DNA of 64,000 bases. It comes from Cephalotus follicularis. Lineage: Eukaryota > Streptophyta > Magnoliopsida > Oxalidales > Cephalotaceae. The position numbers and the translations under genes were made by a program. Shown here piece by piece: positions 17,446-62,405 of the stretch (position 1 is the first letter of the stretch; every line of letters begins with the position of its first letter). Below the pieces are notes generated by a model, which had not been told where the DNA came from, did no database searches, and saw only the letters and a program-made list of their open reading frames with translations. Location: NCBI GenBank assembly GCA_001972305.1, contig BDDD01001480.1, forward strand, positions 340,392-404,391, given 5' to 3'.

Positions 17446-17531
17446 GAGATCCTCCAACGGATCTATTTTTGTGCAATCAGACCAAATCCAGTCGGCTGGA
17501 TTTTCCATGCAGTCGGCTGGTAAAATGTTGT

Positions 17532-26389: not shown

Positions 26390-26416
26390 TTAAGAATAAT
26401 GAGATAACCTCTCTGA

Positions 26417-34920: not shown

Positions 34921-35516
34921 CATTGAATATGAAAAATGATTTATGACTACGAAATTGATCTGATATGATTTGACGGATGTGGATTTATGAGATCCTTTAC
35001 AAACTGGTCCCTATCATTTAAAAGCATACATGATTTTGGGACACAACTACAGGATGAATTATTGATTTTATTGTATGAGACCTAAATGAGATAACCCATT
35101 CATGATCCTCACCTCCGTCATGAAGGCCAAGAATGCTAGAACACATAATACAGGCTGGACTATTGTGAACAGTCGAGACAATACAAGCTGGACTATTGTG
35201 AACAGTCGAGACAATATAGGCTGGACTATTGTGAACAATCGAGACCATATGGGCTTGGACCATTGTGAACAAGCTCTACTGTAAGCACTGAGTGGTCAGT
35301 GATATCTCATTCCTCACTCCTCCGCGACACCAAAAGTGCGTCGAGGGTGGGATGGACCCTATGGATTGATTGTCCCTACGATTGATATGGATTGTCTGCA
35401 GGCTAATGGCCTTTGATGTAATTAGGACTAGCTAAATATACCACGCTTAGGGACGGTTGGTATATTGAAGCTGTCCACGTTTGCCATTTACACACCTGAC
35501 ATCACATGGCATATTG

Positions 35517-39748: not shown

Positions 39749-42315
39749 TGTAATAACCGCAATTTCAATTAATGTATATTACTCTTAAATAAAATATACA
39801 TTTTAATTGAGATTAATTGTCCAATTATCATACGGATTACGGTTGTTAATTTAATTGAGCAAATGGACCTAAAATAACCAAAAGCAGCCATTGACAGCCG
39901 ACTGCCATAGGGGAACAGTCGATTGTCTGATGCGTGGGGTGACAGTCGACTGCCTGTTAAAGACAGTTGACTGGAATGGTACAGAACAGGCATCTGGCAT
40001 GCGCAGAGACAAGGATGACAGGTGTGCTAATCGTAGCATGCAGGAGGGATGCGTGTCACCACCTGCCATAACATGCAAGGGGAGTGCCTTGCATGCCCTC
40101 TATTCCTTCTGCAAGATTTGCAGACCTGCAACCTGCAAAAACAGAAGAGAAAAGTGAGGAGAGGTGCATGTGAGCGAGAGAAGGAAAAGAGAGAAGGCTG
40201 AGTAATGTAATCTGGCCATTCCTAGGTTTTTCTAAGCTTTATATCAGTTGTTTTAGAGAGTATGAATGTTGAAAACACTTGAGAGAGAAGGAAACTTTGG
40301 ACAGTAGCTGTTGGCAAGTGGATGCATGTTGAAGGATTAGAGTGCAAAGGAGGACTTGAAGCTTGGATTTCCTGGTAAGCTCCAAGCTCTGTTAGTATTA
40401 AGGTTATGGTTAAATAGTCTCACATTCGTCCTATAACCACTGATTAAACATGATCACCAGTAATAAGCTGGAATTTGGAGATAGAAATTGTAATGGAAGT
40501 GGTTAAATATGAAAATGGAGTTAAGGAATTGTTGATAAGCCTGTGATTCGATTATAGTCATTGTTATAGTTGTCTCTAGGTATGTGTATACTGACTATAC
40601 ATATATACATCTTCTGTAACATGCAAAGATAAATAATTACTGGATTTTGGAAGATTGGTTGGTGAAAAGGCTTGGAAACTCAAAGAGAGAGATCAATCCC
40701 AATTGATCTCAGGATAGCAATTTAGGTAGGGGTAATGACATATTTTGGAAGATATGAGTATGCATATCATGTATGGTTATTTTCTGCTTAATTGCATGCA
40801 CTGATTGCTTTTGTTTTAGGCATTGAAATATACAACCTACTGCTGCCTACATTTTCTGGGCAAAGCAGTCGACTATTCTTCATGACAGTCGACTACTCAA
40901 TCTATCTAGTCGACTGTTAAGAGAAAACAGTCGACTACTCAATCGAAACAGCCGACTGTTCTTAAGAACAGACGACTGTCCTGGGTTAAAATTCTGATAT
41001 AGGTCCTGTTTTGGCCTTAATTTTAATGTAATTAACTTAGCCTCCATATGGATGTTTAGAACAATCAATCCTGGCCTTATATACAATTACATTTCAGAAA
41101 CTAAACAAGTATGCAACCCTTGTGTGAGTCGCACATGAATGACTATGGTATGCTAATTACCTCATTGGATGTCTTGAATTGCTATTGTGCTTCACTGTTT
41201 GCTGTATATACTACTATCATAATTCGTATATACTGTCTAAGTGTTCTTCAACACTATTATCACTTATCTTCAATGATTAAACCAAACTAAGTGCTATAAG
41301 CACGGATATGGGTTTTACTAATGGTTTCAAACTGAAATTTATTGCCAATGATTTACTGTTCTCCTCCTATGAGAGGTACCTACTGTTTTGTTCCCCAACT
41401 GGGAACCACTACTGTACTGATATCGTTTTCCTCCTATGAGATGTATGATCAATGAATTGTTAAATGTTTCTAAAGAAAACAACTTTTATATTGCATATTA
41501 TACATATATGTAATATTATTATTGAACTAAATTGATTTAATTGATTGTCTATGTTATTGCCGATTAGTTGAGTGATGGCAGATGTCACTGGCTAACGGAG
41601 GTGGCCCTATGTGCCAGGAGTTGGCTAGAGTACACACCCAAACTGTCTGCAATGCAGATCTTATTGTTAAACTGCCCACTAATGCCGGTAGTAAATGTTA
41701 CCTTATCTATCATCTTCGGAGTGTAGGGTGATAGTTAGGTGGTGCACAGTTGGTGCTAGGAGTTAGCGACATGTGACACCCAAACCACAATATGAATTGA
41801 TTGTACCCTTGTGCGGTATTCTTGCATTGTATTGTCTATGGCCACTTGGCATGGTTGCTTATATATTGGAATACTTAAAAATGTTATGTTCAATATAAAA
41901 TGTCATACATGTTGCATTTATATATTCCTTAGCATGGATTATCTTCCTACTTAGGCAAGTGAGGACAACGGCTAACCTCCAACAATTTCAGATTAAGCGA
42001 AGACGTTGGAGGGTGCTACTGAAGCTTTTGGGGAGCTTCTTTCTATCTTAAAGTTGTTATTTTTATGATGTACTGTATTGTAATGAACGGTTCATACCCC
42101 GTGATGTTGTTGTACTTTAGTTATGTATAAGGATATTGTTGGATTGTGCCTGCACGTAGTATGGGCTGCGTGCAGATGACTTGTATTTTATATTCTGGCT
42201 TATTGAATGCTTCCGCTTATATATGAATTGTTGATTGGAATGCTAGAATATTGTTTTATTTCTGATATCACCATATATGGTTGTGACTAATGGAACTGAA
42301 GGGCGGGGTGTGACA
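39749..42315 (+). mobile_element. Solo LTR I (2,567 bp) inside J
   Basis: Target duplication gtagt lies at 39744-39748 and 42316-42320. Ends are TGTAATAACCGCAATTT and GGGCGGGGTGTGACA. It interrupts the very end of J's pol: removing it joins the frame through LFTKALPGT to TFKKFRHD. It has two palindrome clusters (39897-39971, 40868-40976) and the gaggacaacggctaac block near 41965. No PBS or interior, so it is a solo LTR of the gypsy type. Confidence 0.92.
40868..40976 (+). repeat. Six phased GTCGAC palindromes in LTR I
   Basis: Cores start at 40868, 40888, 40909, 40930, 40951 and 40971, each step 20-21 bp. Forms are AGTCGACT with GCCGAC and GACGAC variants. A second cluster upstream has pairs 39897/39918 and 39945/39966, 21 bp apart. 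Confidence 0.9.
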
Positions 42316-42764: not shown

Positions 42765-43680
42765 TCATTTTGTTCCGCTCGGATAAAATAGACTCATATC
42801 AGTGCTTCCACGCAGATAGCGCATTATGTGCTTAATCCCATTCCAATGTCTTCTTGTAGGTGTAGAGCTATATCTTGCTAGCAAATTAACGGAAAATGCA
42901 ATATCAGGTCTTGTGCAATTTTCAAGATACAATAGTTCTCCAATTGCGCTAAGATAAGGGACTTCAGGTCCAAGTATTTCTTCTCGTTCTTCTTGAGGAC
43001 GAAATGGATCCTTCTTGACATCAAGAGATCTGACGACCATTGGAGTGCTTAGAGGATAAGCTTTGTCCAAGTTGAATCGACTAAGAACCTTTTCAGTGTA
43101 TGTGGATTGATGGATGAAGATCCCAGATGATATGTGCTCCACCTGTATACCCAGACAAAATTTTGTTTTTCCAAGATTTTTCATTTCAAACTCGCCTTTT
43201 AAATTTGTTGCAGTCTTTGTAAGTTCTTCAGAAGTACCTACAAGATTTAAGTCATCCACATATACTGCAATAATAGCAAATCCATCGTTAGATTTTTGGA
43301 TAAAAATACATGGACATATTTGATCATTTGTATACCCTTCTTTGATTAAATATTCACTTATTCGATTGTACCACATTCGACCAGATTGTTTCAATCCATA
43401 CAACGAACGTTGTAGCTTAATTGAATACATGTGGAGAGATTTGTTCGATTCAGGAACTTCAAATCCATCAGGAATTCTCATGTATATGTCACTATCAAGT
43501 GATCCATATAAGTATGCTGTTACTACATCCATAAGACGAGTTTCAAGTCCGTTCGAAGCAGCCATACTAATTAGGAATCGAAAAGTGATTCCATCCATAA
43601 CTGGAGAATATGTTTCCTGGTAATCAATACCTGGTCTCTATGAGAAACCTTGAGCTACAAGCCTTGCTTTGTATCTCACA
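42765..43680 (-). pseudogene. Reverse transcriptase of J
   Basis: Open for 277 codons (to 43598), with the rest of the N-terminal part upstream in other frames. Motifs: MDVVTAYLYGSLDSDIYM (family DVVTAYLYG), SLYGLKQSGRMWYNR, the catalytic box AVYVDDLNLVG (YVDD intact), ELLYLENCTRPDIAF and IMRYLRGS. Upstream, the start of the RT region (the family YDYQETYSPV area) is near 43600-43640 and broken by stops. It is not functional as a whole. Confidence 0.9.
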
Positions 43681-44006
43681 ATTTCATTTTTCTCATTTCA
43701 TTTTTGAACAAATATCCATCTAAATCTAACAGGGGTTACACCACTTGGTGTTTGAATTATTGGTCCAAATACCTCTCTTTTGGACAAAGATTGCAACTCT
43801 GCTTGTATTGCATCTTTCCATTTTGGCCAATCATTTCTTTGTTAACATTGTTCAACACTTTGTGGTTCAGGATCCATGACAGGATTTGCAATATCCAATA
43901 CAACGACATTGGCAAACTTGTCATTAACTATAATCTCATCTCGATTCCATATTTGTTCACTATGTGCATAATTAATCGAGACTACTTGATTTTGAAATCC
44001 CACAGC

Positions 44007-45605
44007 CTATTCAGGACTTTGTACTCTCTCTGGAGTCAATGTGGGTTCTGGAAATAACACATTATCTTGTGTTAATGCTATTTCAGGGTTTTGTACACCA
44101 CCCTTATTTGCCTTTCGTTTTAGTGGCACAATATCTTTAGCACTAATTGGTCTACCACGTTTCAACTGCGGTGTAGACTTTAATATATCGATTGAGCTTT
44201 CACTAGCTTTAGATATATCAATTATTGCTGGAGCATTCACAGCTGGTATATAAGATTTTACCACCTTTAGAGCATCATTAAATGCATCTGGCATTTGATT
44301 AGCAATATTTTACAAATTAATGATCCTTTGAACTTGTAGTTCACATTCATTTGTATGTGGATCAAAACTATGTAATCTTGATGCTTTCCATGAATTTTCA
44401 TTTTCATTTTTCAATAAAATCTTGTCTCCCCCTAACACTGAGAAAACCAATTCATCAAAGTGACAGTCTGCATAACGTGCAGTAAATATGTCACCTGTTA
44501 ATGGTTCAAGATACCTTAAAATTGATGGATAATCAAATCCCACATAAACGCCAAGTCTGCGTTGTGGTCCCATCTTGCTCCACTGAGGAGGTGAAATAGG
44601 GACATATGCGGCACATCCAAACACTCTTAAGTGTGATATGTTTGGTTCTTGACCAAGAACAAGTTGCAATGGAGAATATTTATGATATGCAGTCGGTCTT
44701 ATACATATAAGAGCTGCAGCATGTAATATTGTATGTCCCCAAGCTGAAATGGGTAGCTTTGAACTCATTAATAGAGGACGAGCAATCAATTGAAGTCTCA
44801 TTATAAGAGATTCGGCTAACCAATTTTGGGTGTGTACGTGAGGAACAGGATGCTCAATGGCAATTCCTATTGCCATGCAATATTCATCAAATGCTTTGGA
44901 ACAAAATTCAGCAGCATTATCTAGACGAATAGACTTTATAGGATGATCTGGAAATTGTGCTCGCAATTTATTTATTTGAGCCAATAGTCTCGCAAATGCA
45001 ACATTGCGAGTTGAAAGTAAGCATACATGCGACCATCTTGTTGATGCATCTATTAAGACCATGAAATACTGAAATGGTCTAGATGGTGGATTAATTGGTC
45101 CACAAATATCTCCTTGAATTCTCTCTAAGAATTTTGGAGATTCTACAACCACTTTTGTTGTAGATGATCTTATAATGAGTTTTCCTTGCGAACAAGAAAC
45201 GCAATGGTTCTCATTATTCAATAGCATTTTCTGCTTTTTAAGTGGATGGCCATGTGAACTTTCAATGATTCGACGCATCATTCTCACACCTGAGTGGCCT
45301 AGCCGTTCATGCAAAATCATGAACCCTTTTAAGTCTATGACTTTTGAATCCACAACATTATGAGATTCAATTGCTCTAATTTTCATAATGTATAGCCCAG
45401 AAGAAAGCCCAGTGGAGTTTCTCCAATATTTGCTTTCGGCCGGAAGCATTACCAGTGATATAAAGATATTCTTTGCCATTTTCATTTGTGGTTTCAATAT
45501 GATAACCATTTCGGCGAATATCTTTGAAACTAAGCAAGTTTCTTCTAAACTTTGTCGAATATAAAGCATCTGTGATGCGCATTTGTATTCCATTTGATAA
45601 CACAA
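44007..45605 (-). pseudogene. GAG-preintegrase and integrase of J
   Basis: Open frame 44310-45605: HERLGHSGVRMMRRI (GAG_pre-integrase), CVSCSQGK, then the integrase core with IQGDICGPINPP (first D), SIRLDNAAEF (second D) and LAESLIMRLQL (catalytic E), FGCAAYVPISPPQ and YVGFDYPS. The usual HTQNG before LAESL is HTQNW here. Continuation 44007-44294 is the low-conservation linker between integrase and RT. Confidence 0.9.
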
Positions 45606-45759
45606 AACTGGCCATCCTAGAACCTTCGATTAGGTCTGATGTACTAGAAATTATTCCAACATTATCCTTTCCTATTGTCAAATGTGAAAAATATTTTTCA
45701 CTCTGGAGTATTGTGTGTGTTGTTGCACTGTCTGCTATGCATATATCTCCAATATCCAT
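45376..45759 (-). pseudogene. Aspartic protease region of J
   Basis: ICIADSATTHTIL is the active-site segment (D-S-A-T-T in place of D-S-G-A-T, seen in some plant copia lineages), followed by IISSTSDLIEGSRMASFVL and ALYSTKFRRNLLSFKDI. It overlaps the integrase frame in another phase, indicating a frameshift near 45400-45600. Confidence 0.8.
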
Positions 45760-45874
45760 TGTATGATGATCTATAGATAAAAACAGACATGTTAATAAAT
45801 ATAACTATGTTATATTTAACTTCATAAGCACGTTATTCAAAAAGTGATAAACATTAAAACAGTAGCACAAAACA

Positions 45875-47733: not shown

Positions 47734-47948
47734 TGTTGTAAACTTAAGACGTTAACTCAGAAAAGAAGATTGCACTATAAAGATATTTAGAGAGAAAGTG
47801 AGAGAGAATAAGAGATTTTCTTATTACGAATTTCTTAACTTCTTCTTAACAATAAATTCCTATTTATAGGAGTTTAGGGGGGTTGTTGGAATAGTATTTG
47901 GTTGTTGGAATAGTAATTCACTATTCATTTGTTGACTTCTTTACAATA
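47734..47948 (-). mobile_element. 5' LTR of J
   Basis: 215 bp, matching 39331-39544. It ends at the TSD aatgt (47949-47953), after which the satellite resumes. Confidence 0.9.
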
Positions 47949-48877
47949 AATGTTATGTTTTAAGTAGTTTTAGGGTTTCTTTTTATAGACAATATAAATA
48001 AATCACTGTAAGTTGTTTGAGAAATTTTTTTTCGCCATTGTCAAAATGAAACGAAACTTGACCAGTTGATTAGAAACGATCAGCTAATAAATACTAAAGT
48101 CCATGTCGTGATTTCGGTTAGAAATTCGCGTTCTAAGATCGTTTAGTGGGTCAATTTATCGTATTTATATTTTAGGGGTGTAATTACAAATTTCTAAAAG
48201 TTATGTTTTAAGTCATTTTAGGGTTTCTTTTTGCAGACAATGTAAACATATCAACATAAGTAGTTTGAGACAGTTTATTCGTCGGTGTCAGAATGAAACG
48301 AAACTTGACGGGTTGATTGGAAACGAGTCACTGATCAATACTCATGGCTATGCAATGATTTCGTAGGGAAATTCTCATTCCAAGATCATTTAGTGGGTCA
48401 ATTTATCGTATTTCTATTTTAAGGGTGTACTTATAAAAATCTAAAAGTTACATTTTCAGCCGTTTTAGGGTTTCGTTTTGCAGACAATGTAAATACATCA
48501 TTGTAAGTTGTTTAAGACAGTTTATTCGCCGGTGTCAGAATGAAACGAAACTTGGCCGGTTTATTAGAAACGAGTAGCTGATCAATACTCATGTCTTTTT
48601 AGTGATTTCAGGAGAAAATTCGCGTTTCGAGATCGTTTAGTGGGTCAATCTATCGTATTTATATTTCAGGAGTGCAATTACAAATTTCTAAAAGTTATGT
48701 TTTAAGTCGTTTTTGGATTTCTTTTTGCAGAAAATGTAAATACATCAACGTAAGTTGTTTGAGACAGTTTATTCATCGGTGTCAGAATGAAACAAAACTT
48801 GGCTGGTTGATTGGAAAGAGCCGCTGATCAATACTCACAGTTGTGGCGTGATTTCGGTGGAAAATTAGCGTTCCGAG

Positions 48878-50662
48878 TGTCACACCCCGTTTAGGTAGGA
48901 CAACATTAAAGCGGTAAAGGCAATTAACATATAAATACAGCTTATGCAAATACCATAAAATTTAAACTTTTCCAAGGAACATTAGTGGCGGAAGCATAAA
49001 AATTCATAAGCTGTAAACTCGTAAAGTGCATCCCATACTGCACGCTACCCAATACAAGTCCGTCACTGTTAATCGCCCATAAAACAGAGCGTGATCACAG
49101 TAGAAAATTAAATCCCATCATTAATAAAACATAGTACAGTACACTAGTCCTTTAATAAAACTCAGTTTATTACAAAACATGAGAAAAGTAAAGCCAAGAA
49201 CAAAACAACATAACATCTTGTTCTTCGCCCATGCCAGTCCAATCGGTCCACTGCATCAATCTGTAAAGTAGAGGATTAGCCTTTGTCCTCACTCGACTAA
49301 GTCATAAAAGTAGCATGGGATCAACATTAGATGCATGTCATGTAATGTATGCATAAATGATGCAGTGCAGGAAATACCAGTTTATATATATGTGAGAAAT
49401 ATATGCATTTTAGCAGTACAGTAAAATAATAGTGGGTACATATATAAGAAAATATATGTATGCAGGAATAGTACAGTTGTAACCTGGCCAGGGTTCCATC
49501 AACAGGCATAGTAATGTCCAAAAAGGACCAACAGGCAGTACAGTATGTCCGTAAGAGGACCACAACAAGCAGGCAATATGTGTAACGCCGCCAACTCCTG
49601 GCCCCATGCTACACTCCCACTCCGGTCCCTACTCCAGGCAACCGAGCGAGGCAACAGTATAGTACAGTGAGTCACCCAGCCAACTCCTGGCCCCGAGGTC
49701 AACCCTACCACTAGCCGGCGCTGGCAGCCTCCGCCATGCAACCAGTGGCTCAAGCACAACCACATAGAAATTCACAGAGCAAACAGTGAAACAAACAGTA
49801 AACAGTACAGTGGAGATCGTTTAGATCGACATTAGGCAGTTCATTTTCCAATATTTCTGAAAGTAATAAATATTTGAAACATGTAATTTCAGTAGTAGAA
49901 ATACCTTTGAACAAATCAGTAGTGTAAATCGTTTACCAGTTCGTTCGAAAATACGTTATTAACCAATACATATTTTCATACTCAAAATAGCACATTTCGA
50001 GTTCACATATGCATTTCTAAACATCACAACTTTAGAAAATCATAAACGATTTACAAACAGTAACCAATAAGAAGTAAACAGTGTATATGAAATGCATACA
50101 AATGCTCTAATGCATCCTAAGAGAAATCGGGATCGTCGGGTATCAAAACCGTAAAACTGTCCAAACAGGACTATAAAGCGTCCGCGTTTATTCCTTAGGC
50201 GTCGACGCTTGTGTCCCTCAAGCGTCAACATTCAGTTTCATAGCGTCAGCGCTTTCAGTGTCTGGGTGTCGATATCTCCTCCCTTAGACGTTGACGTTTT
50301 AACGCATTTCAACATATAAAACGCCGTTCATAGTATTAAGCGTCGATGCTTATACAAGGCGTCAACGGTTTCAAGCAGGGGTCGTCTTCTTCCTCACGAC
50401 ATGGCAAACAGTGACATTTCCATGACCATAACATGCACTCCAACATGTATAAAGCCCAGCAAACTAGCATGCAATATCACATCATACATCCAGTATAGCA
50501 TAGCAACATTTCATTAACTCAAAAATAGTCCAACAAGCCATGAAATCTATGCAAAACATCACTGAACAAACATCAACTATTGGATCCAAAAATACAGTTA
50601 TGGCTTCCCCTACCTCTGGCCTCAAGTTAGAAGCCGAAAGTCCATATTTTTTAGTATCCACT
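48878..50662 (-). mobile_element. Truncated LTR L (gypsy-type)
   Basis: On the minus strand the 3' end is CGGGGTGTGACA at 48878. It carries the gaggacaaaggctaat block near 49280 and a palindrome cluster, and near 50610 a tagcttgaaaccagaggta-like block as in C. It breaks off at about 50662 straight into integrase sequence of M, so the LTR start is lost. A simple-repeat-like stretch of cagtacag words lies at 49400-49830. Confidence 0.7.
50180..50366 (-). repeat. GTCGAC-type cluster in L
   Basis: Cores at 50180, 50201, 50224, 50245, 50268, then 50290, 50342 and 50361. Most steps are 19-23 bp. Arms are AGCG/CGCT (GGCGTCGACGCTT at 50199-50211). Confidence 0.8.
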
Positions 50663-51371
50663 TCCTCCCATACAGTGCTTCAAACGGTGCCATGCCGATA
50701 CTGGAATGATAGCTGTTATTATAAGAGAACTCTATCAAAGGAATGCGATCCTCCCATGTACCAGCAAAATCAATAATGCAAGCCCGTAGCATATCCTCCA
50801 AGGTCTGGATGGTACGCTCAGACTGCCCATCGGTCTGAGGGTGAAAGGCAGTACTCAGGTTTAGCTTCGTCCTGAAAGCTGTCTAAAATCTCTTCCAGAA
50901 GTTGGAAGTGAAGATGGAATCTCTATCACATACGATGCTAACTGGAACACCGTGTAGCCTCACTATCTCCTTCACATACAAACGAGCTAGCTTGCTCGCA
51001 GAATTGGTAACGTCTGTAGGCAGAAAGTGTGCTGATTTAGTGAGTCTATCTACGACAACCCACACGGCGTTGTGGCAGTTCTGAGTCAGAGGAAAACCCA
51101 AAACAAAATCCATCGTAACATGTTCCCACTTCCACTCTGGAATTGGTAAAGGTTGTAGTAAACTTGCCGGTCTCTGGTGCTCAGCCTTGACTGTCTGGCA
51201 TGTCAAACACTTTGCCACATACTCGGCGATCTCTCGTTTCATGCCAGGCCACCAGTAAGTCTTCTTCATATCTTGATACATTTTAGTGCTACCAGGATGG
51301 ATACTGTACAGAGATTTATGAGCCCCGCGAAGTAACTCATTCTTAAACCCTAGTTCATTCGGAAGACACAC
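50663..51371 (-). pseudogene. Integrase of M
   Basis: Zinc-binding H-H-C-C region ([25 protein letters not shown]), catalytic core with [10 protein letters not shown] (first D), [12 protein letters not shown] (second D) and [13 protein letters not shown] (catalytic E), then [22 protein letters not shown] stop after TSNFWKRF (50883-50885) interrupts the core between second D and E. The C-terminal part is lost at the junction with L. Confidence 0.92.
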
Positions 51372-51504
51372 ACGTCCTCGATATCTCAGAATACCATCAG
51401 CATGTAATCAAAAATCAGATTCCGAGTCTAGGTTCTCAAATTCGTAGGAATTCCGCATCGTGCGGTTGTGCATCCCTGATGTGATCCAGTAACACAGGCT
51501 GTAC

Positions 51505-51894
51505 TCACATGTCGGCCACAAAAATCCTCGGTGACTGATTAAACGGAGACCACTCTTGGAAGTCTTCTAACATCTTCCATTGCGACACCATCACACTGGA
51601 AACCATAGCCTTGCGGCTCATGGCATCAGCGACTACATTCGCTTTTCCCGGGTGGTACTGAACACTGCAATCATAATCATCAAAGAATTCTACCCACCTG
51701 CGTTGTCTCATGTTCAGTGTGTCCTGACAAAACAGGTACCTCAAACTCTTATGATCGGTAAAGATCTCAAATTGCACACCATAAAGATAGTGCCACCACT
51801 TCTGAAGGGCGAAGATAATAGCTGCAAGTTCGAGGTCATGAGTCGGGTAGTTTTCTTCATACGGCTTTAGCTTCCTCGAGGCACATGCAATCAC
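51505..51894 (-). pseudogene. RNase H of M
   Basis: [49 protein letters not shown] and [13 protein letters not shown] are the standard gypsy RNase H landmarks. The first part (YNDASGRGLGCVLM) is in the neighbouring block 51904-52096, separated by a TAG stop at 51904-51906. Confidence 0.92.
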
Positions 51895-51903
51895 TCTGCC
51901 TCG

Positions 51904-52096: not shown

Positions 52097-52230
52097 CTTG
52101 ATGTTGACATTTATGTCTCAATCCTAAGTTTTGATGATAACATATTTGTGTTTACCAAAGTTTCTTGGTGTGCAAGAAAACCATGAAATGCACAAACCAG
52201 CACAAGAATTCTGCAGATACAGGGCAAACC

Positions 52231-52590
52231 GTCGACGCTCAAGGATAAAGCGTCAGCGCTTTGAGAGGCAGTCGAGACAAGGAACAAAGCGTCTACCGGT
52301 GAAGCACTTTCAAAAGAGGAACAAACACTCAAACCTTCGATGCCCAAATCCAAAGCGTCTGCGCTTTGACACAAAACGTCTGCGCTTTGTGCAAATCGTC
52401 TGCCGATTATACCAGTGAGGCCAATTGGAATTCAATTGGGCCTAAGCGTCGACGCTCAAACTTAAGCGTCAGCGCTTTGAGGTGCCGGTCGACTCCAACG
52501 CTTAGAACGCCTACGCTTTGAGCTAACAATTTCAAATTAAAGTTCCCAATGGTCACATAAGCGTCGACGCTTTGAAGGTGACAGTCGACG
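52231..52590 (+). repeat. Phased AGCGTCGACGCT array, 4-4-4-2
   Basis: Cores start at 52231, 52252, 52271, 52291; 52336, 52357, 52378, 52398; 52448, 52468, 52488, 52509; and 52563, 52584. Steps within groups are 19-21 bp; gaps between groups are 45-54 bp. Arms AGCG/CGCT are kept while the centre varies (GTCGAC, GTCAGC, GTCTGC, GTCTAC). A TATA box follows at 52686. The 3' LTR copy repeats it from 61389. Confidence 0.92.
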
Positions 52591-52685
52591 CTTTGCACGG
52601 CTGGAAAATTTCTGACAGAGTTTTAGTGGACATTCCATGATGGAACAATTCCTAAAACATTCCCAACGGATCTCTGAGGCAAAGA

Positions 52686-52693
52686 TATATATA
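52686..52693 (+). promoter_or_regulatory. TATA box of H LTR
   Basis: TATATATA in aaagatatatatatgcaagg, about 100 bases after the last palindrome and conserved in the 3' LTR (61843-61852). Likely core promoter by position. Confidence 0.6.
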
Positions 52694-53231
52694 TGCAAGG
52701 ATGTTTTGAAGAAAAAAAGAGAGAACAACACAAGAGAAATCAAATCACAAAAGAATTCAAAGAAATCATATACCAAGCATTCAAATACAAAGCTAATCTA
52801 AAAAGCTTTCATCTTACATCTTAAGCCATTGTTTTTTTTTTTTTTGGGAACAATTTGGTTAATATATATCAATAAAAGATGTTACACAAAGGCATTAGCA
52901 TGTTTACAAAAAGGACATGCCAAATGCACACTACCTAGAAGCCCAAAAAACTTGGGTATTAAACCCTAAACCATAACAAATCATACAAAAAAGGCCCTAA
53001 ACATGGGTATGTATCACCTATTCAAGCAAGAGCCACACTAGTGGGCCTTAGCCCAACCCGTGGCCAACTAACAGCAAAGGGCATCGCACGCCAACAGCCC
53101 AATCTTAGCGCACGTTGCGCCCATACATTTCTGCCAGCAGATGCCCAACCTTCCTCCCGTGCCAGCAGCCCAAAAAGCCACTGCATTGCGCACGTATGCA
53201 CCAATGCATCTCCGCCACCTTTGTACCAGTA

Positions 53232-54320
53232 TCAAATTTCCTCACCCAACGGGACACCCCAATTAACACAGAGGCTATGGTGGCGTTCACATCTTAGAGA
53301 GCTATTGCCTGACGCCAGCTTCCCACTCACATCCTGTCTCACCAAACGAATGATCTCCTGGTGAGGTAAGAACAAGTTCTTGAAGCAGCGACGATTCCTT
53401 TCTATCCACAGATGATAAGTGGTGGCTGCAAAGGCAAGTCTCCTCACAGTATGATGAAACGCACTGCCTCTCGCATGGGTGGACATCCACAGCACTTCAT
53501 CCGCCCAAGGGAGGATGGGTCTAACTATATTGCACATGTACAGGACTTCCCTCCATACCATGGCTGAGAACGGGGATTGGAAGAAGAGATGTTATAGCGT
53601 TTCTGTCTCCCCACAGAGGAAGGCACACTCAGCACTATGTACCACCCCAAAAGCCAACAACTTGTCCTTAGTCCTATGAGCTCCCCGATGCGCTAACCAT
53701 AAGCTGAAAGCATGCTTAGGTATTCTTTTACTATGCCAAACAATGTCGTGCCAATCCACCGAACTTGACCTTTGTCTAATACCATGGAATGCCCTGGCAG
53801 TGGAGAAGGCCTCCCCCACTTTGTCCCAATGTATACTATCTGGAACAGTAGAGATTGGGATGTTTCTCACTCTCTGTTGCAATTCAACCAAATCACATGA
53901 GGCCTGGGGCCAACACCACTCACCCTCCCATATAACATCCTTAACCCGTGCATGCTTGCTCAGACCAGCATCAAGAATTACCCTGTGTCCATATAGAGCA
54001 TGAACGGAGTGCCCATGCAGCCACGGGTCGAACCAGAGGGAGAATTGCTCGCCGTTCCCACATTTGTAAATAAGGTGCTCCTTCGCCAATGGCCTCAGAA
54101 GAAGGATCTGCCTCCATGACCAGGAAAGATGGCCATGTGACGAAGCTGACCAAAGGTTGGAATTATGGAGAAGATAAACATGGTACCATTTGGCCCAGAT
54201 AGATTCCTCCGTAAGCACACACCAAAGTTGTTTGAGGAGCAAAGCTTTGTTCCATGTCTTCAAATCACGGATACCCAGCCCACCCTCCAAAAACGGTTTA
54301 CAAACGTCAGCCCATTTCAC
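53232..54320 (-). pseudogene. LINE ORF2 C-terminal part (zf-RVT)
   Basis: Block 53592-54320: KWADVCKPFLEGGLGIRDLK, LWFDPWLHG and the zinc-finger region WHSKRIPKHAFSLWLAHRGA, CAFLCGETETL, followed after a stop by HLFFQSPFSAMVW in block 53232-53561 with TTYHLWIERNRRCF. This is the classic plant L1 C-terminus after RT. Stops at 53592 and about 54325 disable it. Confidence 0.9.
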
Positions 54321-54335
54321 CTTGCCTCTACCTCT

Positions 54336-55480
54336 TCAACCCCACAAGAGTGTCCTAAGGACACGCTCACAATCCTTTATAGTGCTCATAGGAAGCAGAA
54401 AAATGTTACACCAATAGCACTGCATGCTGACAAGGGTAGCCTTCACCAGTTGTAGCCGACCAGCAAAAGACAAAGCCTTACTTACCCAAGAATTGGCTCT
54501 GGCCGTGATACGCTCCACCAGAGTGCTACACTCAACCTTAGATAGTCTTTTCGTGATCAGGGGAAGACCTAGATAAGTCACTGGCAACGTACCTTCAAGG
54601 CATCCAACCCTATGGAGAATGTCCCTTCTCGTTCTAGCATTAGTGTTGCAGAAAAACACCAAACTCTTCTGAGGACTGACTGTGAGACCCGAGGCTTCTT
54701 TAAACTTATCCAAGCTCACCAAAAGGCAGTTTACGGATGGGAGGCTCGCCGCCGATAGAAAGAGGAGGTCGTCTGCATAACACAAGTGGGTAATGCCCAC
54801 ACGCTGGCACCTCGGGTGGAACCTGAACTGTCGCCCTAAAACAGAGGGATGGAGAAGGTGGGAGAGGAGATCCATACTCAAAGCAAAGAGGTAAGGCGAG
54901 AGAGGGTCTCCCTGCCTAAGCCCCCTCTTACCAGGAAAGTATCCATACATGCTACCATTAAGAATCACCGAGTACATAGGAGAAGAGATGCATTGTCGAA
55001 CCCACCCTACAAAATTCCTGGGGCACCCAAATTTTGTCAGCATGGCCAGGACAAAGTCCCACTCAATCGTATCATAAGCCTTGTGTATGTCCACTTTAAA
55101 GGCACAACGGGCAGCACCCCTATTCAAGCGGTATCCACGCAAGAGCTCCTGGGCAAGCAGAATGTTATGTCTTATGTTACGACCCTTGACAAAGGCCGAT
55201 TGGGCAGGGTCTACCAGGTGTTGGAGGGCTTGCTTCAATCTATTAGCAAGGATCTTCGAAATAGTTTTGTAAAGGAAGTTACAGTAGGCTATAGGTCTAA
55301 AGTCACCCATCCTCTCTGGACACTTCACCTTGGGCACAAGGGCTAAGGCTGTGGCGTTGAGACTTCTAGGCATGAAACCCGTGGCAAAGAAACTAAGAAT
55401 GGCCTGGGTGCAATCTTCACCAACAATGCTCCACGCATCTACGATCTTAGACGACAATGAACTCAAACGTTGGAGAGAGC
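54336..55480 (-). pseudogene. LINE reverse transcriptase
   Basis: RT motifs in order: FRPIAYCNFLYKTISKILANR, VDPAQSAFVKGRNI, FKVDIHKAYDTIEWDFV, GLRQGDPLSPYLFALSMD, the catalytic box LCYADDLLFLS (YADD), SGLTVSPQKS, and VTYLGLPLITKR. It is open for about 380 codons until a TGA after RTLLWG. The first codons of the open frame are junction sequence, not LINE. Confidence 0.93.
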
Positions 55481-55485
55481 TAAAA

Positions 55486-57381
55486 CATCTCAAAACCCCC
55501 TTACTTCGATGGCAATAACTATAGCCATTGGAAGGCTAAGATGAGCATTTTCATTCAATCCCTTGACTACAACCTATGGGACCTTATAGTTAATGGTCCA
55601 AATCTCCCCACCATCACACTTGAAAACAGGGATGTAGTTTCCAAGCCTAGAAATCTCCATGATGATAATGATAGGAAGAGAGTTCAAATAAATGCTAAGG
55701 CTAAGCATATCATTATTTGTGCCATAAATTCTAATGAATTCAATAGAATTTCTTCTTGCGTTTCCGCTAAGGAAATGTGGGATAGACTTGAGGTCACCTA
55801 TGAAGGGACTAATCAAGTTAAGGAAGCCAAAATTAGCATGTTAGTCCATGAATACGAAATGTTTACCATGAATGAGAACGAAGATATAAAATCCATGTTC
55901 TCTAGATTTACATACATTATTAATGCATTACAAGCTTTAGATAAGATGTATTCTAACAATGAAATGGTAAGAAAAATTCTTAGGTGCTTGCCAAGATCAT
56001 GGATGCCGAAGGTCACCGCGATTGAAGATGCGAAAAATCTCAATGTCCTTCCATTAGAAGATCTTCTTGGATCATTAATGACTCATGAACTATCTATGCA
56101 AAAGAAGGATGACGATGAAGAAAAGGAGAAGAAGAAGAAGAAGATAGTTTCCTTAAAATCATCCCAAACGGAAGATTCCGAGGATGATGATGATGATGAA
56201 GAGCTAGCCTTCATAACAAGGAAGTTCAAAAAATTCCTTGCTAGCAAGAAGAAATTTGGTGGAAAGCCAAATAATAAATTTCACCAAAAAGGAGAGTCAA
56301 GCAAGCTTGAGGAAATCATATGCTTCGAGTGCAACAAACTGGGGCACTATAAAAGTGATTGCCCCCGCCTCAAGAAGAAGGACCTATTGAAGAAGAAGAA
56401 GAAGGCCATGATCGCAACATGGGACGATAGTGATGAGTCTAGCTCGGATGAAGACTCAAATGAAGAAGTGGCTCAAATAGCCTTGATGGCTTTAGAGGAA
56501 GAAGAAGAAGAAGAAGAAGAAAGCGATGAGTTAACATATGACGAACTTGTTTTAGTAGTAGAAAAATATAGTTCTATAATTGCATCATTAAAGAAAAAGG
56601 TTAAGTCTTTGGTAAACGAAAATGATGAACTTAAATTGGCCAAGGAAGAAACCTCAAATGAAATTGAGGTAGATCATTTAGAAAATGAAGTGGTATATCT
56701 TGTAAAAGAAAATAAAAATCTTAAGGAGGAAATAGAAGTTTTAAAGAAAACTTTCTCAAAGTTTTCTAATAGTAGTAGAAGCTTGAAAATCTCCTTGGGA
56801 TGCAAAGATGTGTATTTGATAAAGCCGGACTAGGATATGACGAAATGAACAATGTCAAGCTTTATCAAGCATGCTTTGAAAGGAAAGAAAAATTATAAAA
56901 AGAAAAGGTTGAAAAGGCTAAAATTAAAAGGAAAATTGTAAAAACCACATGTGACTATTGTGGGAGAATTGGACATACATCTTTCACTTGCTTCCATAAA
57001 AAGAATGCCATGTTTAAGAAGAATTTGATTAATTCTTGTAATTTTTGTGGCAAACATGGACACACATCCTCACAATGCTATCATAGGAAAAATGCCATAA
57101 ATAAGAAAAGGATGAATGTCTTGTGTACACATTGTGGTAAGTATGGTCATGCATTTTCATCTTGTGTTTATAGAAGAAATAATATGCATAAAAGAAGAGT
57201 AGTTGTTTCTTGCAATAATTGTGGTAATAATGGCCATACTTCTACATCATGCTTTTATAAAGAGAATGTATTGAATGACTTGAACTTCTCTAGAATAAAA
57301 AGGAGTTGGGTTCCTAAAGGAACCATTTTGACTAACCCCAAAGGACCCAAAGTTTGTTGGGTACCTCAAACAAAAATTTGA
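55486..57381 (+). pseudogene. gag of H with five zinc knuckles
   Basis: It begins at the LINE junction within KPPYFDGNNYSHWKAKM. Core: MSIFIQSLDYNLWDLIVNGP, EMWDRLEVTYEGTNQ, KILRCLPRSW, LLGSLMTHE. First knuckle CFECNKLGHYKSDC (about 56320). An acidic segment and coiled coil follow. A one-base frameshift near 56785 moves LENLLGMQRC out of frame; a TAA lies near 56898. Then four knuckles start at 56950, 57037, 57124 and 57211, exactly 87 bp apart (CDYCGRIGHTSFTC, CNFCGKHGHTSSQC, CTHCGKYGHAFSSC, CNNCGNNGHTSTSC). It ends WVPQTKI at 57381. Confidence 0.93.
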
Positions 57382-57396
57382 AATTTATGTTTGTAG

Positions 57397-57861
57397 GTGT
57401 GCTTGAAGGAATTATCCAAGAAGACACAATGGTACTTGGATAGTGGATGCTCCAAGCATATGACGGGCGACAAGAGTCTATTCGTCAAATATGAATCAAA
57501 GGAAGGAGGAGAAGTAACATTTGGAGACAATGCAAAAGGGAAGATCAAAGGTGTTGGCTCCATAGGTAACCTTAAAACCTCCATTCATAATGTGTTATTT
57601 GTTGATGGACTTAAGCAAAATCTATTGAGCATAAGCCAATTATGTGACAAGGATTGTAGAGTCGTTTTTTAAAAAGACTCGTGCAAAGTGATAGATATTA
57701 ATAACGATCAAATAAAATTTATAGGACATAGACATGGGAATGTATATGTTGTAGATATAGATGATTTGATTAATATTAAATGCTTAGTATCTATGAATGA
57801 AGATAGTTGGCTATGGCATAGAAGGTTAGATCATGTAGGCATGTCAACCATATAAAAGCTT
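57397..57861 (+). pseudogene. Protease and GAG-preintegrase of H
   Basis: WYLDSGCSKHMTGD is the copia protease active site (DSGCS form, common in plants), followed by GGEVTFGDNAKGKIKGVGS and LLSISQLCDKDCRVVF. TAA at 57670-57672 and TAA at 57853-57855 interrupt the frame. Between them [16 protein letters not shown] is the GAG_pre-integrase motif (HRRLGH with G to D). Confidence 0.92.
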
Positions 57862-59100
57862 TTGAAACATGAGTTAGTTAAAGGACTTCCTAAGATTAGC
57901 TTTGAAAAGGATAGAGTTTGTGATGCATGCCAATACGGAAAACAAACAAGGGCTTCATTTCAAAGCAAAAACATTGTATCAACAAATAGGCCTTTGCAAC
58001 TTTTACATATAGACTTATTTGGTCCAATAGATGTTAGAAGCCTAGGTGGAAAATCTTATGCCATGGTCATTGTAGACGATTATTCAAGATATACATGGAC
58101 TATTTTCCTAGCCCACAAAAGTGAATATTTTAAAGAATTTTCAAACTTTTGCAAAACCGTTCAAAGTGAAAAAGACACTTCAATTTCTAAAATTAGAAGT
58201 GATCATGGAAAAGAATTTGAAAATCATTTGTTTGAAAACTTCTGTAATGAAAATGGTTTTATACATGGGTTCTCCACTCCTAGAACCCCTCAACAAAATA
58301 GGGTTGTTGAAAGGAAGAATAGAACATTACAAGAAATGTGTAGAACACTTTTAAATGAAAATAATTTACCAAAATATTTTTGGGCGGAAGCAATAAATAC
58401 TTCATGTTATATCCTAAATCGCATATCAATTAGGCCAATTCTCAAAAAGACTCCATATGAGTTATGGAGGGGGAGAAAGCCGAACATTAGTTACTTTCAT
58501 ACCTTCGGATGCAAGTGCTTTATCCATAATAATGGAAAAGAGCATCTTGGAAAATTCGACTTCAAAGTCGATGAAGGTATTTTTCTTGGTTATTCTCCTA
58601 GTAGTAGGGCTTATAGATGCTTTAATAAAAGAACTTTATTAGTTGAAGAATCAATGCATGTTGTTTTTGATGAATCTAACCCTAAACTTCCAAAAGAAGT
58701 TATTGTTGATGATTGTGTAGATTTCATTGAAAATGGTGTTAACAAGCTTAATCTAGATGAAGCCAAAAGGGAGGAATCTACCATAGAAGAAACCCCTCAA
58801 GAAAGCTATCAAGAAGCTCTTCATGAAAAAACCTTGAAGGTGGTAAAAGGACATCCACATGAAGCTATAATATGTAATCCTAGATTAGGTGTATCCACTA
58901 GATCTAGTATTAATCATAATTATCTTGATTTCTTATCACAAATAGAGCCTAAGAATATAAATGAGGCTGAAAAATATGAAAATTGGATCAATGCCATGCA
59001 AGAAGAATTGAATCAATTTGAAAGAAGTAAAGTATGGAACCTAGTACCTAGACCTAGTAACCAAAACATCATAGGCACAAAATGGGTTTATCGGAACTAA
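57862..59100 (+). pseudogene. Integrase of H pol
   Basis: [14 protein letters not shown] (zinc-binding end), LLHIDLFGPIDVRSL (first D), KIRSDHGKEFENHLF (second D), STPRTPQQNRVVERKNRTLQE (catalytic E; QQNG to QQNR), KTPYELWRGRKPNISYFH and EGIFLGYSPSSRAYR. The C-terminus runs into the RT start WINAMQEELNQFERSKVW. A TAA at 59098-59100 follows GTKWVYRN, replacing a lysine codon. Confidence 0.93.
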
Positions 59101-60471
59101 GTAGACGACCAAGGTATTGTTATTAGAAACAAAGCTAGGTTAGTTGCTAAGGGATATTCCCAAGATGAGGGAATCGACTTTGATGAGTCATATGCACCCG
59201 TAGCTAGATTAGAGTCCATACGTATGTTGGTTGCATATGCATCATTTAAGGATTTCACACTTTTTCAAATGGATGTAAAAAGTGCATTCTTAAATGGGTT
59301 AATAAAGGAGGAAGTTTATGTGGAACAACCTCCCAGGTTTGAAAACTCTCATTATCTCGACCATGTCTTCAAACTTTCAAAGGCATTATATGGCTTGAAA
59401 CAAGCTCCTAGAGCTTGGTACCAAAAATTGAGTGGATATCTACTTGAAAATGGTTTTAAAAGGGGCACTATTGATATTACCCTCTTTACAAAAACTGTCA
59501 ATAATGAAATTTTAATTGTTCAAGTATATGTAGATGATATCATTTTCGGTACTACTAACAAAGGCTTGTGCAAGAATTTCCCTAAGATCATGCAGGTAGA
59601 ATTTGAAATGAGCATGATGGGTGAGCTCAACTACTTCCTTGGACTTCAAGTCAAACAGTTAGAGGAAGGAATCTTCATCAACCAATCAAAGTATGTCAAG
59701 GACTTACTCAAAAGATTTGGGATGGAGAACGCCAAAAAGAGCAAGACCCATATGAGCACAACTACAAAGCCTGATAAGGATGAGCAAGGTAAGTCCATTG
59801 ATCAAAAATTGTATAGAAGCATGATAGGATCATTGCTTTACTTAACGGCAAGTAGGCTGGACATCTTGTTTAGTGTGTGCTTATGTGCTAGATTTCAAGC
59901 ATGCCCCAAAGAATCCCATTTGCATGCCGTAAAACGTATCTTTAAGTATTTAGCATATACACCGTCCTTAGGACTATGGTATCCTAGGAAATCATGCTTT
60001 GACTTACACACTTACTCCGATGCCGATTTCGGAGGATATAAGGTAGATAGAAAAAGCACAAGTGGCACATGTCAATTTTTGGGCAATATGCTCGTTTCTT
60101 GGTTTAGCAAGAAACAAAATTCGGTAGCACTTTCGACTACCGAAGCCGAATATATTGCCGCGGGCAGTTTTTGTGCTCAAATCATGTGGATGAAGCAACA
60201 ACTTCTTGACTATGGTTTCAACTTTGTAAAAGTGCCAATTAGGTGTGATAACACTAGTGCAATATGCTTAGGGAAAAACCCCGTTCATCACTGTAGAACT
60301 AAGCACATTGACATAAGATATCACTTCATAAAAGATCATATAGAAAAAGTTGATATTGAATTAGTTTTTGTCCCGACCCAAGAACAAGTCGCGGACATAT
60401 TCACAAAACCTTTAGATGAACAAACCTTTTCAAAATTTAGATTGGAATTAGGTTTGTGTGAAATTGAGTGA
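59101..60471 (+). pseudogene. Reverse transcriptase and RNase H of H pol
   Basis: Directly after the stop: [73 protein letters not shown] and the catalytic box [14 protein letters not shown] (YVDD intact), then RNase H with [31 protein letters not shown] and [12 protein letters not shown], ending GLCEIE. The 415 codons from 59224 are uninterrupted, so this half of pol looks intact. The stop at 59098 cuts it off from the integrase. Confidence 0.93.
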
Positions 60472-60595
60472 TTGACATGTTTCTATGATTGTTGTGATTA
60501 AATATGTTTGCTAAAAATGCTTGTGTTCTCATTTATGCGTCATTTGCATTCATTCTCGCGCATTTACGAAAAAACAGGAGAAAACAGAGCAAAGC

Positions 60596-60696
60596 GCCGA
60601 CTATTGTTTTTAAAGCGTCCGCGCTTTGAACGAAATTAGGGTTCGAAATTGGGGAATTTGGTTTAAGCGCCGACGCTTACCCCCATTCCGTCGACG
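60596..60696 (+). repeat. Two phased palindrome pairs upstream of H's 3' ORF
   Basis: Cores at 60596/60617 and 60669/60690, each exactly 21 bp apart, with the same AGCG/CGCT arms as the LTR array (AAGCGCCGACGCTT at 60665-60678). They lie outside the LTR, 150-250 bases before the ATG at 60847. Confidence 0.85.
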
Positions 60697-60846
60697 CTTT
60701 AATCGCGTTTTAAGACAGAAAGTGCCATCTGCCAAACCTTTCTACGCATAAAATTCAAACCCTAACTTCTAAACACACTATCTCCGGCGATTTTTTGGCG
60801 AAAAACACTCGAAAAAACACAGATTAAGCTTCGTCCAACATCAATC

Positions 60847-61146
60847 ATGCCAAGAGCTAAGAACATTAAGGCTGGAAAAGGGTCAAAGACAAAGAAGAAA
60901 TCAGTGGGGCACAAGGGCAAGGGTATTGACACTCAACCAGCCACTTCTGAGGTTGCTCCTTCTCTCCCTAGGTACCTTGAGGCTTACTTTAATAGGAAAA
61001 TACGTGTAGGGAAGATTTTAGACTTTAATTTCTGCAATAGTGAAGGTTTTCCAATTATAGGGTGGCTTAATGCTCAAGGGTTAGAACCCTTGTTTTCTCT
61101 AAACNCAGGGGGAGCAAATGTATTTTTGCATCACTTAAGGTCTTAA
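60847..61146 (+). pseudogene. 3' (post-pol) ORF of H, truncated
   Basis: The ATG at 60847 (context caatcATGcc) opens a Lys-rich start MPRAKNIKAGKGSKTKKKS, then PRYLEAYFNRKIRVGKILDF and GFPIIGWLNAQGLEPLF. This resembles the start of the plant transposon-protein domain found in the extra ORF of Sireviruses. It jumps at about 61105 (an ambiguous base N) to GGANVFLHHLRS, where A/G tract-like sequence begins, so the C-terminal two thirds is deleted. E retains the missing tail type (21033-21257). Confidence 0.65.
61105..61105. other. Ambiguous base (N)
   Basis: The only N in the window, in aaacncaggggg. It sits at the deletion junction of H's 3' ORF and may mark a read or assembly ambiguity. Confidence 0.99.
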
Positions 61147-61243
61147 AGCTTTACATTTGTGCATTTTGTATTTTTGTGCATTATTTGTTAAAAGTCTTAA
61201 ACTTAACGTTTATTATGGTAAATTGAAACAAATTTTGTCATCA

Positions 61244-61259
61244 TCAAAAAGGGGGAGAT
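61244..61259 (+). other. Polypurine tract of H
   Basis: Tract aaaaagggggagat, preceded by gtcatcatc, directly before the 3' LTR start TGTTGACATT at 61260. Confidence 0.9.
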
Positions 61260-62405
61260 TGTTGACATTTATGTCTCAATCCTAAGTTTTGATGATAACG
61301 TATTTGTGTTTAACAAAGTTTCTTGATGTGCAAGAAAACCATGAAATGCGCAAAACAGCACAAGATTTCTGCAGATACAGGGCAAACCGTCGACGCTCAA
61401 GGATAAAGCGTCAGCGCTTTGAGAGGCAGTCGAGAAAAGGAACAAAGCGTCTACCGGTGAAGCACTTTGAAAAGAGGAACAAACACTCAAACCGTCGACG
61501 CCCAAATCCAAAGCGTCTGCGCTTTGACACAAAATGTCTGCGCTTTGTGCAAAGCATCTGCCGATTAAACCAGTGAGGCCAATTGGAATTCAATTGGGCC
61601 TAAGCATCGACGCTCAAACTTAAGCGTCAGCGCTTTGAGGTGCCGGTCGACTCCAACGCTTAGAACGCCTACGCTTTGAGCTGACAATTTCAAATTAAAG
61701 TTCACAACGGTCACATAAGCGTCGACGCTTTGAAGGTGACAGTCGACGCTTTGCACGGTTGGAAAATTTCTGACAGAGTTTTAGTGGACATTCCATGATG
61801 GAACAAATCCCAAAACATTCCCAACGGATCTCTAAGGCAAAGATATATATATGCAAGGATGTTTTGAAGAAAAAAAAGAGAGAACAACACAAGAGAAATC
61901 AAATCACAAAAGAATTCAAAGAAATCATATACCAAGCATTCAAATACAAAGCTAATCTCAAAAGCTTTCATCTTACATCTTAAGCCATTGTTGTTCTCAC
62001 TTTGTTTGAGCGAATTTATCTTGTAATATCCAACCTAGTGAGAGGTTTTGATCAAAACACTACTTCATCTTTTTTATTGTAATAGGGGAGTGAACCCTAA
62101 GTGAAATTGGGGAGTGAACCCAAGAGAATTGTAAGTGATTGAGGTCAATCACAAAGGTGTACCAAATAGCACACGAAATTGTATTCGGAGACTAGTGGAA
62201 ACTCAAGGAGATCCTTGGGAAAAGTGGACGTAGGCAAGAGTTACGCCGAACCACTCTAAAATAGTGTTTGCAATCTCTCTAACTCTATCTCTTTAGATTG
62301 TTGTTTAAATTGCTATTGCTTGATATTCTTGTTCATTGTTTTAATTTGCGAAAAGTTTAATTAATTTTTAGAAACTACAATTCACCCCCCCTTGTAGTTT
62401 ATTCA
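61260..62405 (+). mobile_element. 3' LTR of H (1,146 bp)
   Basis: TGTTGACATTTATG to TAGTTTATTCA, followed by TSD cttga. It contains the palindrome array from 61389 to about 61750, a TATA box near 61843 and a second half without palindromes that is lost from the 5' LTR. Confidence 0.93.

Follow-up and report, generated by a model that had tools for sequence, protein, structure and literature searches.

Within a 64,000-nucleotide stretch of the Cephalotus follicularis genome (called the window throughout), two LTR retrotransposons, H and E, carry rows of short palindromes ahead of the TATA box of their LTRs, with a shared layout and pitch and with different arms. The locus raises the question whether the geometry of such an array is kept by selection while its motif is exchanged, or whether geometry and motif are both by-products of tandem copying. 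Palindromic repeated motifs (RMs) were described in 13 Sireviruses, where they cluster ahead of the TATA box and ahead of ENV (Bousios et al., 2010; PMC2829016). In the available text of that account, RMs are marked by element-specific arms (nearly all different among the 13 tabulated) and by CpG islands, occur in at least 8 copies per element with 3-14 of them in the 3' LTR, have divergent flanks and are called Sirevirus-specific; a CGG-CCG core is found in 12 of the 13 founding elements, Tnd-1 being the one without it. The same text leaves open which factor binds RMs and why there are so many RM forms (PMC2829016). With a homologous boundary, spacers at background and different arms, E and H together provide a concrete test of geometry selection and of whole-array motif change.

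Element H occupies 52102-62405 on the forward strand, with the 5-bp TSD CTTGA at both ends. Element E lies on the reverse strand from 27103 down to 16927 with the TSD TAGCT, and a paralogous unfilled site is present at 32443-32447. The gag, integrase and reverse transcriptase frames of H (55484-60471, forward strand) follow the Ty1/copia order, integrase before RT, with Retrotran_gag_2, rve and RVT_2 in sequence; gag was the sole copia frame found in E, and it shares 57% identity with the gag of H across 210 aligned positions. Relatives of the H RT were at most 72% identical in a similarity search (best 120 of 8000 scored), and those with names were mostly plant retrotransposons. H and E are Ty1/copia retrotransposons. 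The 5' LTR of H, left-flanked by CTTGA, can be followed from 52102 to 52836 (forward strand; 96.6% match to 61260-61995), where it is interrupted by a LINE (RVT_1 and zf-RVT frames) that lies at 52833-55535 on the reverse strand and entered with a T run; between the LINE and gag we found neither the remainder of this LTR nor a PBS or 5' leader. The 3' LTR of H (61260-62405, forward strand) ends in TTATTCA, followed by CTTGA. The 5' LTR of E (26416-27103, reverse strand) lacks its 3' end and is adjoined by the TSD TAGCT.

A AAAAGGGGG(G)AGATTGTTG tract is found at the 3' LTR junction of both elements. The PPT of H ends in AAAAGGGGGAGATTGTTG and E has a near-identical one; the PPT/3' LTR junction reads ATCAAAAAGGGGGAGATTG in H and TCAAAAAGGGGGGAGATTG in E, and more GGGGGA tracts lie upstream, two in the 3' internal part of H and three in that of E (the E stretch takes in nested elements). 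By inspection, both junctions fit the Sirevirus PPT consensus. Near the LTR end of H there is, again by inspection, a poly-C tract, ACAATTCACCCCCCCTTG, and the 3' end of E has none. The conserved 5' LTR/PBS junction was found in neither element, its place being taken in H by the LINE insertion and missing sequence and in E by the truncation of the 5' LTR. A short ENV-like frame remnant in H (60847-61146, forward strand) is 40% identical over 57 aa to a PF20167-matching frame at another copia locus (L003, see below) and itself matches no Pfam family; no ENV-like frame was located in E. These hallmarks suggest that H and E are Sirevirus-type elements.

In the 5' LTR of H the array spans 52228-52592 and in the 3' LTR 61386-61750 (both forward strand). 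Each has 14 positions in groups of 4, 4, 4 and 2 before the TATA box, as the original prediction had it, and the two LTRs agree. Compared with AGCGTCGACGCT, 9 of the 14 sites per LTR are close (at most 3 mismatches) and 3 are weaker (4-5 mismatches); the remaining two, sites 3 and 8, have degenerated and were assigned manually by position. Scanning with AGCGTCGACGCT at 5 mismatches also returned matches outside the array, one for the 5' LTR and two for the 3' LTR. The gaps in the 3' LTR are 21, 19 and 20 bp, then 45, then 21, 21 and 20, then 50, then 20, 20 and 21, then 54, and finally 21 bp. The predicted 4-4-4-2 order of 14 sites before the TATA box also holds for the 3' LTR of E, where groups 1-3 (12 sites) lie at 19950-20261 and group 4 (two sites) lies at 17489-17519, beyond the nested element F (both reverse strand); the gaps are 21, 20 and 22 bp, then 50, then 21, 21 and 21, then 64, then 21, 20 and 21, followed by F and by the pair 21 bp apart. 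It does not hold for the 5' LTR of E, which has just 8 sites in a 3-4-1 order (26699-26927, reverse strand). Aligning the two LTRs of E places one large gap in the 5' LTR with both ends inside sites, namely sites 3 and 8, and reading both LTR sequences shows that group 4 of the 5' LTR is short of one 21-bp unit. Exchange between sites thus alters array layout in E. Since an element normally inserts with two identical LTRs, the change in the 5' LTR is probably younger than the insertion of E. The evidence on group sizes comes from these four LTRs of two elements.

The core of the sites is GCGTCGACGC in H and CAGYCGACTG in E. The palindromes originally named as building units serve as such in the sense that variants of them match, but exact copies are few: CAGTCGACTG accounts for 3 of the 14 sites in the E 3' LTR (9 of the 14 are CAGCCGACTG and two are other variants), and the exact 12-mer AGCGTCGACGCT for 2 of the 14 in the H 5' LTR and 1 of the 14 in the H 3' LTR. 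As to candidate factors for GTCGAC, CAGCCGACTG contains the DRE/CRT core RCCGAC. Read from the sequence, several H sites keep the outer arms AAAGCG...CGCTTT while the central four bases vary. Asymmetric sites point uniformly in one direction (9 to 0 in the E 3' LTR, 5 to 0 in the E 5' LTR, 6 to 0 and 5 to 0 in H), which is expected of head-to-tail copying or of a factor that reads orientation. The TATA box follows at 53 bp (E) and 105 bp (H) from the start of the last site. The observed/expected ratio of CpG was 1.36 in the array of the H 3' LTR versus 0.34 in the remaining LTR, and 0.50 in the E array versus 0.27 in the rest of its LTR, with a window mean of 0.80. Separately, the motif AACGG/CCGTT occurs in the gap between groups 3 and 4 and again before the TATA box, at 61706 and 61823 in the H 3' LTR (forward strand) and at 26741 and 26670 in the E 5' LTR (reverse strand); the H 5' LTR has AATGG in its place in gap 3-4. 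The E form CCCAACGGCTA agrees with the MSA consensus of plant M-phase genes.

The arrays of E and H are real and of the known RM kind; H fits in detail, E less well on CpG. Like RMs, they consist of family-specific palindromes before the TATA box with arms that differ between families, and the 14 positions (H and the E 3' LTR) or 8 positions (E 5' LTR) compare with an RM array of at least 8 copies, most of them in the LTR's upstream half (PMC2829016). H may also be RM-like in its CpG content, and it has further sites before ENV, as RMs do: a linker array of four sites in two pairs (60593-60698, forward strand; gaps 21, 52 and 21 bp) precedes the ENV-like frame that begins at 60847. The RM of a Vitis element, CGGTCGACCG, shares the GTCGAC core (PMC2829016). 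Unlike most founding RMs, the sites of E and H lack a CGG-CCG core, which we did not treat as excluding them because that core is not universal in the founding set; unlike the RM that was called Sirevirus-specific, similar arrays occur here in other LTRs too. The original prediction knew of no description of phased grouping with arm switching. Arm differences between RM families are already tabulated in that account; its available text makes no mention of a 20-21 bp pitch, of groups of four or of gap homology between families (PMC2829016). Among the entries listed by a literature search, mainly titles and the openings of abstracts, there was no report of the pitch, of groups of four or of sharing with Ty3/gypsy LTRs; all three may have been described elsewhere. 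The unusual traits here are that spacing is even, that blocks of four are copied and that other retrotransposons in the window have the same core.

Chance as the origin of the arrays was ruled out by shuffling and by dinucleotide expectation. GTCGAC occurs 44 times in the window versus 6.3 expected from dinucleotides, the highest ratio among the 64 palindromic hexamers, and 22 of its occurrences lie outside E and H in 43,509 bases. Nine pairs of GTCGAC are 19-22 bp apart, and no other palindromic hexamer has more than one such pair. When one mismatch and symmetric flanks were allowed, 29 gaps between neighbouring GTCGAC-type sites measured 19-22 bp, versus a mean of 0.1 and a maximum of 2 in 100 dinucleotide shuffles. 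The hexamer and gap counts take in both LTRs of E, both of H and both copies of K (an LTR described below), so that the 29 events are not independent. The pitch within groups is 20.69 ± 0.59 bp (sd) over 29 non-redundant gaps from H, E, K and the H linker, of which three rest on hand-placed H sites; the arrays of F, M, N and X were left out, as was a 27-bp gap in K that was classed as between-group. Of the helical phasing proposed at the outset, the unit of about 21 bp within groups stands, but between groups (gaps of 45-64 bp in E and H) a Rayleigh test gave no clear phase and phasing across groups is not claimed. Five periods between 10.0 and 11.0 bp gave p values of 0.18-0.26 with the Sirevirus gaps (n=7), 0.046-0.50 with n=12 and 0.042-0.28 with n=27, lowest at 11.0 and uncorrected for the number of periods; the gaps were taken manually from the site lists, and the largest set includes uncertain sites. 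Other pitches are seen in copia relatives outside the window (22, 16 and 22 bp in L003; 25 bp in L001). The pitch of 21 bp thus characterises the arrays of this window and is no general rule.

Layout and pitch are common to E and H while the arms differ, as had been claimed, and part of the layout is homologous. Among ten comparisons of gaps between the two elements, P was below 0.05 in two: the gap between groups 2 and 3 (Smith-Waterman score 27 versus a null of 12.3 ± 2.5, P=0.0005) and the sequence that precedes group 1 (P=0.02). Gaps 1-2 (P 0.26) and 3-4 (P 0.13-0.21) and the stretch after group 4 showed no significant likeness, and BLAST of E against H gave no match within the arrays and one downstream of the TATA box. 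Spacers within groups are at background between the elements (identity 0.22 at matching positions versus 0.25 when shuffled, P=0.81, 12 positions). Within an element, same-position spacers of different groups are alike (0.56-0.67 in E and 0.41-0.56 in H, three spacers per group pair; P 0.0003-0.047 in 6/6 comparisons). BLAST agrees: groups 1 and 3 share 54 bp at 85-87% in the two LTRs of E, and groups 1-3 share 34-40 bp at 80-88% in those of H. Since spacers are alike within and at background between elements, we conclude that multi-site blocks were copied or homogenised in each lineage. As one of the three between-group gaps is homologous, E and H probably owe the layout to their common ancestor, with arms and spacers replaced together; independent triplication in each lineage may be an alternative.

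Within-group gaps differ by just 0-2 bp between E and H, and between-group gaps by 5, 14 and 2 bp, the last value using the E 5' LTR. The agreement to 0-2 bp of gaps whose spacers are at background fits a constraint on pitch. Recent tandem duplication with flanks as similar as the sites had been named as grounds against the original prediction, and this applies in part, since spacers within an element are alike (0.41-0.67); the sites are still more alike than the spacers, with 0.93 versus 0.35 in E, 0.59 versus 0.35 in H and 0.85 versus 0.41 in K. After insertion, 7 of 23 substitutions between the LTRs of H fall in sites, which make up 23% of the sequence (not counting four more differences where the LINE adjoins). 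The H sites thus mutate like the rest of the LTR, and selection, if any, would act in the mobile lineage only. As for the proposal that array geometry is under selection, the agreement in pitch fits constraint, but the 4-4-4-2 order need not be selected, because blocks were duplicated or homogenised and the two LTRs of E differ in group sizes.

Arrays with a GTCGAC core also occur in the long LTR-like sequences F, K, M and N, which share a 3' block in BLAST; its exact pattern is present in F, K, M and the K copy and absent from N. The LTR K has four CAGTCGACTG-type sites at 39894-39974 (gaps 21, 27 and 21 bp) and six sites at 40866-40980 (gaps 20, 21, 21, 21 and 20 bp; CpG observed/expected 1.39), both on the forward strand. 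A diverged copy of the second K array lies at 2040-2160 on the reverse strand; over 1331 aligned columns the copies are 77% identical and the array itself has no indel, versus 2.5 expected (P=0.08, not significant). Beside the K LTR lies a broken copia element (42765-45804, reverse strand) with RT, integrase and a Pol beta-barrel domain, whose own LTRs were not located. F (17532-19914, forward strand), a long element nested in the E 3' LTR, has irregular AGCGTCGACGCT-type sites at about 18814-19271 and, away from this main array, two GAGTCGACTC palindromes 13 bp apart at 18026-18048. M has an array with GACGTCGATGTC-type arms and partly regular spacing at 14060-14680 (reverse strand) and a further one at 15410-15570. 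The AGCGTCGACGCT-type array of N (50170-50370, reverse strand), called leniently with up to 4 mismatches to any of three forms, has 7 of its 8 gaps at 19-23 bp and one of 52 bp. It lies downstream of Ty3/gypsy RNase H and integrase frames (50883-51903) on the same strand, and no clean LTR start was found between frames and array; because same-strand frames precede the array, N is probably of gypsy origin. F, K, M and N are probably Ty3/gypsy LTRs. X, of unassigned type, has six sites at 12200-12346 (forward strand; gaps 21, 29, 28, 32 and 20 bp) and a homologous array with the same gaps at 6250-6395. Regularity is clear in K, fair in N and poor or partial in F, M and X. The arms are CAG/CTG in K, mostly GCG/CGC in F and N, and GAC/GTC in M, and from the coordinates the array lies about 0.9-1.0 kb before the 3' block in K, M and N and about 75 bp before it in F.

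An exchange of array units between E and K was considered and rejected, as their spacers show no significant likeness (mean P=0.20; best pair P=0.09) despite a 35-bp BLAST match at 83% over two sites. The variable CpG islands described in LTRs of Del, a Ty3/gypsy element, form a CpG-rich stretch of variable length comparable to the K array, K being the one probable gypsy array here in which CpG was measured (PMC4029996). Unlike K, the Del paper's main text contains neither 'palindrome' nor 'tandem repeat', and eudicot Del elements have no CpG islands (PMC4029996).

Searches for copies elsewhere gave no match among viral contigs or phages, four plasmid records, all below 60% identity, and 18 loci in genome contigs, three of which (L001-L003) were examined. 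L001, L002 (Labilibacter sediminis CG51) and L003 (Eubacterium MAG RUI539) are plant-type copia sequence in bacterial assemblies, which is probably contamination. Two of them share the architecture of E and H: in L003, four GGGTCGACCC/GAGTCGACCC sites lie ahead of the PF20167 frame, and in L001, read from the sequence, a TATA-like box and then an ATG come after a palindrome array. L002 has no repeated palindrome.

Taken as a whole, the arrays are probably best explained as promoter-proximal binding arrays that evolve by concerted tandem turnover. A nuclear DNA-binding protein, probably a dimer, would occupy neighbouring sites about two helical turns apart and drive transcription of the LTR and the internal region. 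Three four-site blocks and one two-site block were probably inherited from the ancestor of E and H. Slippage, or unequal exchange from one site to another, would then have copied units and blocks and made them uniform inside each element, so that the arms changed together; selection would maintain the site sequence and a pitch of roughly 20-21 bp. This explanation builds on the conservation of sites over spacers, the position before the TATA box, the CpG enrichment in H and K, the likeness of spacers within an element and the loss from site to site. Duplication of units could by itself also produce a constant pitch, and the explanations considered here overlap and are not mutually exclusive.

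The closest competitor is a passive minisatellite in a slippage-prone cis-region, with pitch, grouping and arm uniformity as by-products and no selection on geometry. It overlaps with the preferred explanation, which itself has duplication plus selection, and we consider it quite possible although not the favoured account. It would explain why spacers as well as sites are common to groups (the 54-bp and 34-40 bp BLAST matches), why TRF called 21-bp tandem repeats in both E and H, why array losses that end in sites separate the two LTRs of E and why asymmetric sites are uniformly oriented; it leaves unexplained that sites are far more alike than spacers, that within-group gaps of E and H agree so closely despite background spacers, and that the K arrays, with spacers not significantly like those of E, show the same pitch and core. 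Folding offers a different route. Palindromes of maize Sireviruses have reportedly been proposed as small-RNA hotspots (Bousios, 2016), and the present sites might likewise fold as RNA stems that feed small RNAs and host silencing. Predicted folding does beat shuffles (z -3.97 for the H 5' array, with 0 of 100 shuffles as stable; z -2.31 for groups 1-3 of the E 3' array, 3 of 100), the preserved outer arms of H sites would suit a stem, and the copy in the 3' LTR would fall within the genomic transcript. Good folding is expected of any palindrome array, however, and the z-scores therefore have no discriminating power; a constant pitch finds no explanation in this model, and the transcript does not include the 5' copy, which is upstream of the TATA box. 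We regard a silencing hotspot as an unlikely main explanation.

In maize, the LTR palindromes of Sireviruses are siRNA hotspots with the motif CACCGGACNNNGTCCGGTG, as described in the available text of PMC10760457. The arrays here resemble them as a palindrome cluster in the LTR cis-region with strong predicted secondary structure and differ in the motif; phased groups go unmentioned in that text (PMC10760457). Binding by a protein that the element itself encodes, with arms co-evolving with the protein and related elements separating their specificities, is less probable still. It has a close formal parallel in the VANC target motifs of Arabidopsis VANDAL transposons, which form tandem arrays in noncoding DNA in one orientation, and in which, as here, units are gained and lost and diverge together between related elements (PMC5735166, PMC10398659). 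In E and H, too, the arms switch together, one orientation prevails and E has lost units. VANDALs are unlike E and H in being DNA transposons with a 9-base motif, YAGTATTAY, and an element-encoded anti-silencing binder (PMC5735166, PMC10398659). The scanned frames of E and H, part of all their frames, show no DNA-binding candidate beyond the gag zinc knuckles, and the same core in unrelated LTRs points to a shared host factor.

A code across superfamilies can be imagined, which we put forward as doubtful: the LTRs of unrelated elements in this plant (the Sirevirus-type E and H, the probable Ty3/gypsy LTRs K, M, N and F, and X) would have converged on GTCGAC-core arrays with a spacing of some two helical turns, host factors would read core and pitch, and specificity would depend on the arm class, which can be exchanged (CAG/CTG for E and K; GCG/CGC for H, F and N; GAC/GTC for M), with concerted turnover allowing a switch of class while geometry is kept. 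Sharing across superfamilies has a precedent in maize, where the Sirevirus palindrome is also the most abundant motif in Helitrons (PMC10760457). Were GTCGAC-core arrays shared across the LTR superfamilies of a genome, it could become feasible to identify one host factor, or one family of factors, for all of them.

At gathering thresholds, no known RNA families were found in the window. Other tandem repeats are present in it. Arrays of a 247-bp repeat lie at 37554-39320 and 47947-48874 and are roughly 80-95% alike. Element X has a 33-bp tandem repeat, AATAYAGGYTGGACTATTGTGAACAGTCGAGAC, at 6974-7131 and 35147-35271, with a GTCGA core and a different period. Nested repeats of 15, 17 and 30 bp (ATCCGTTTACGG..., CCATTCGATAAC...) occur in related elements at 3046-3540, 23198-23646 and 30608-31024.
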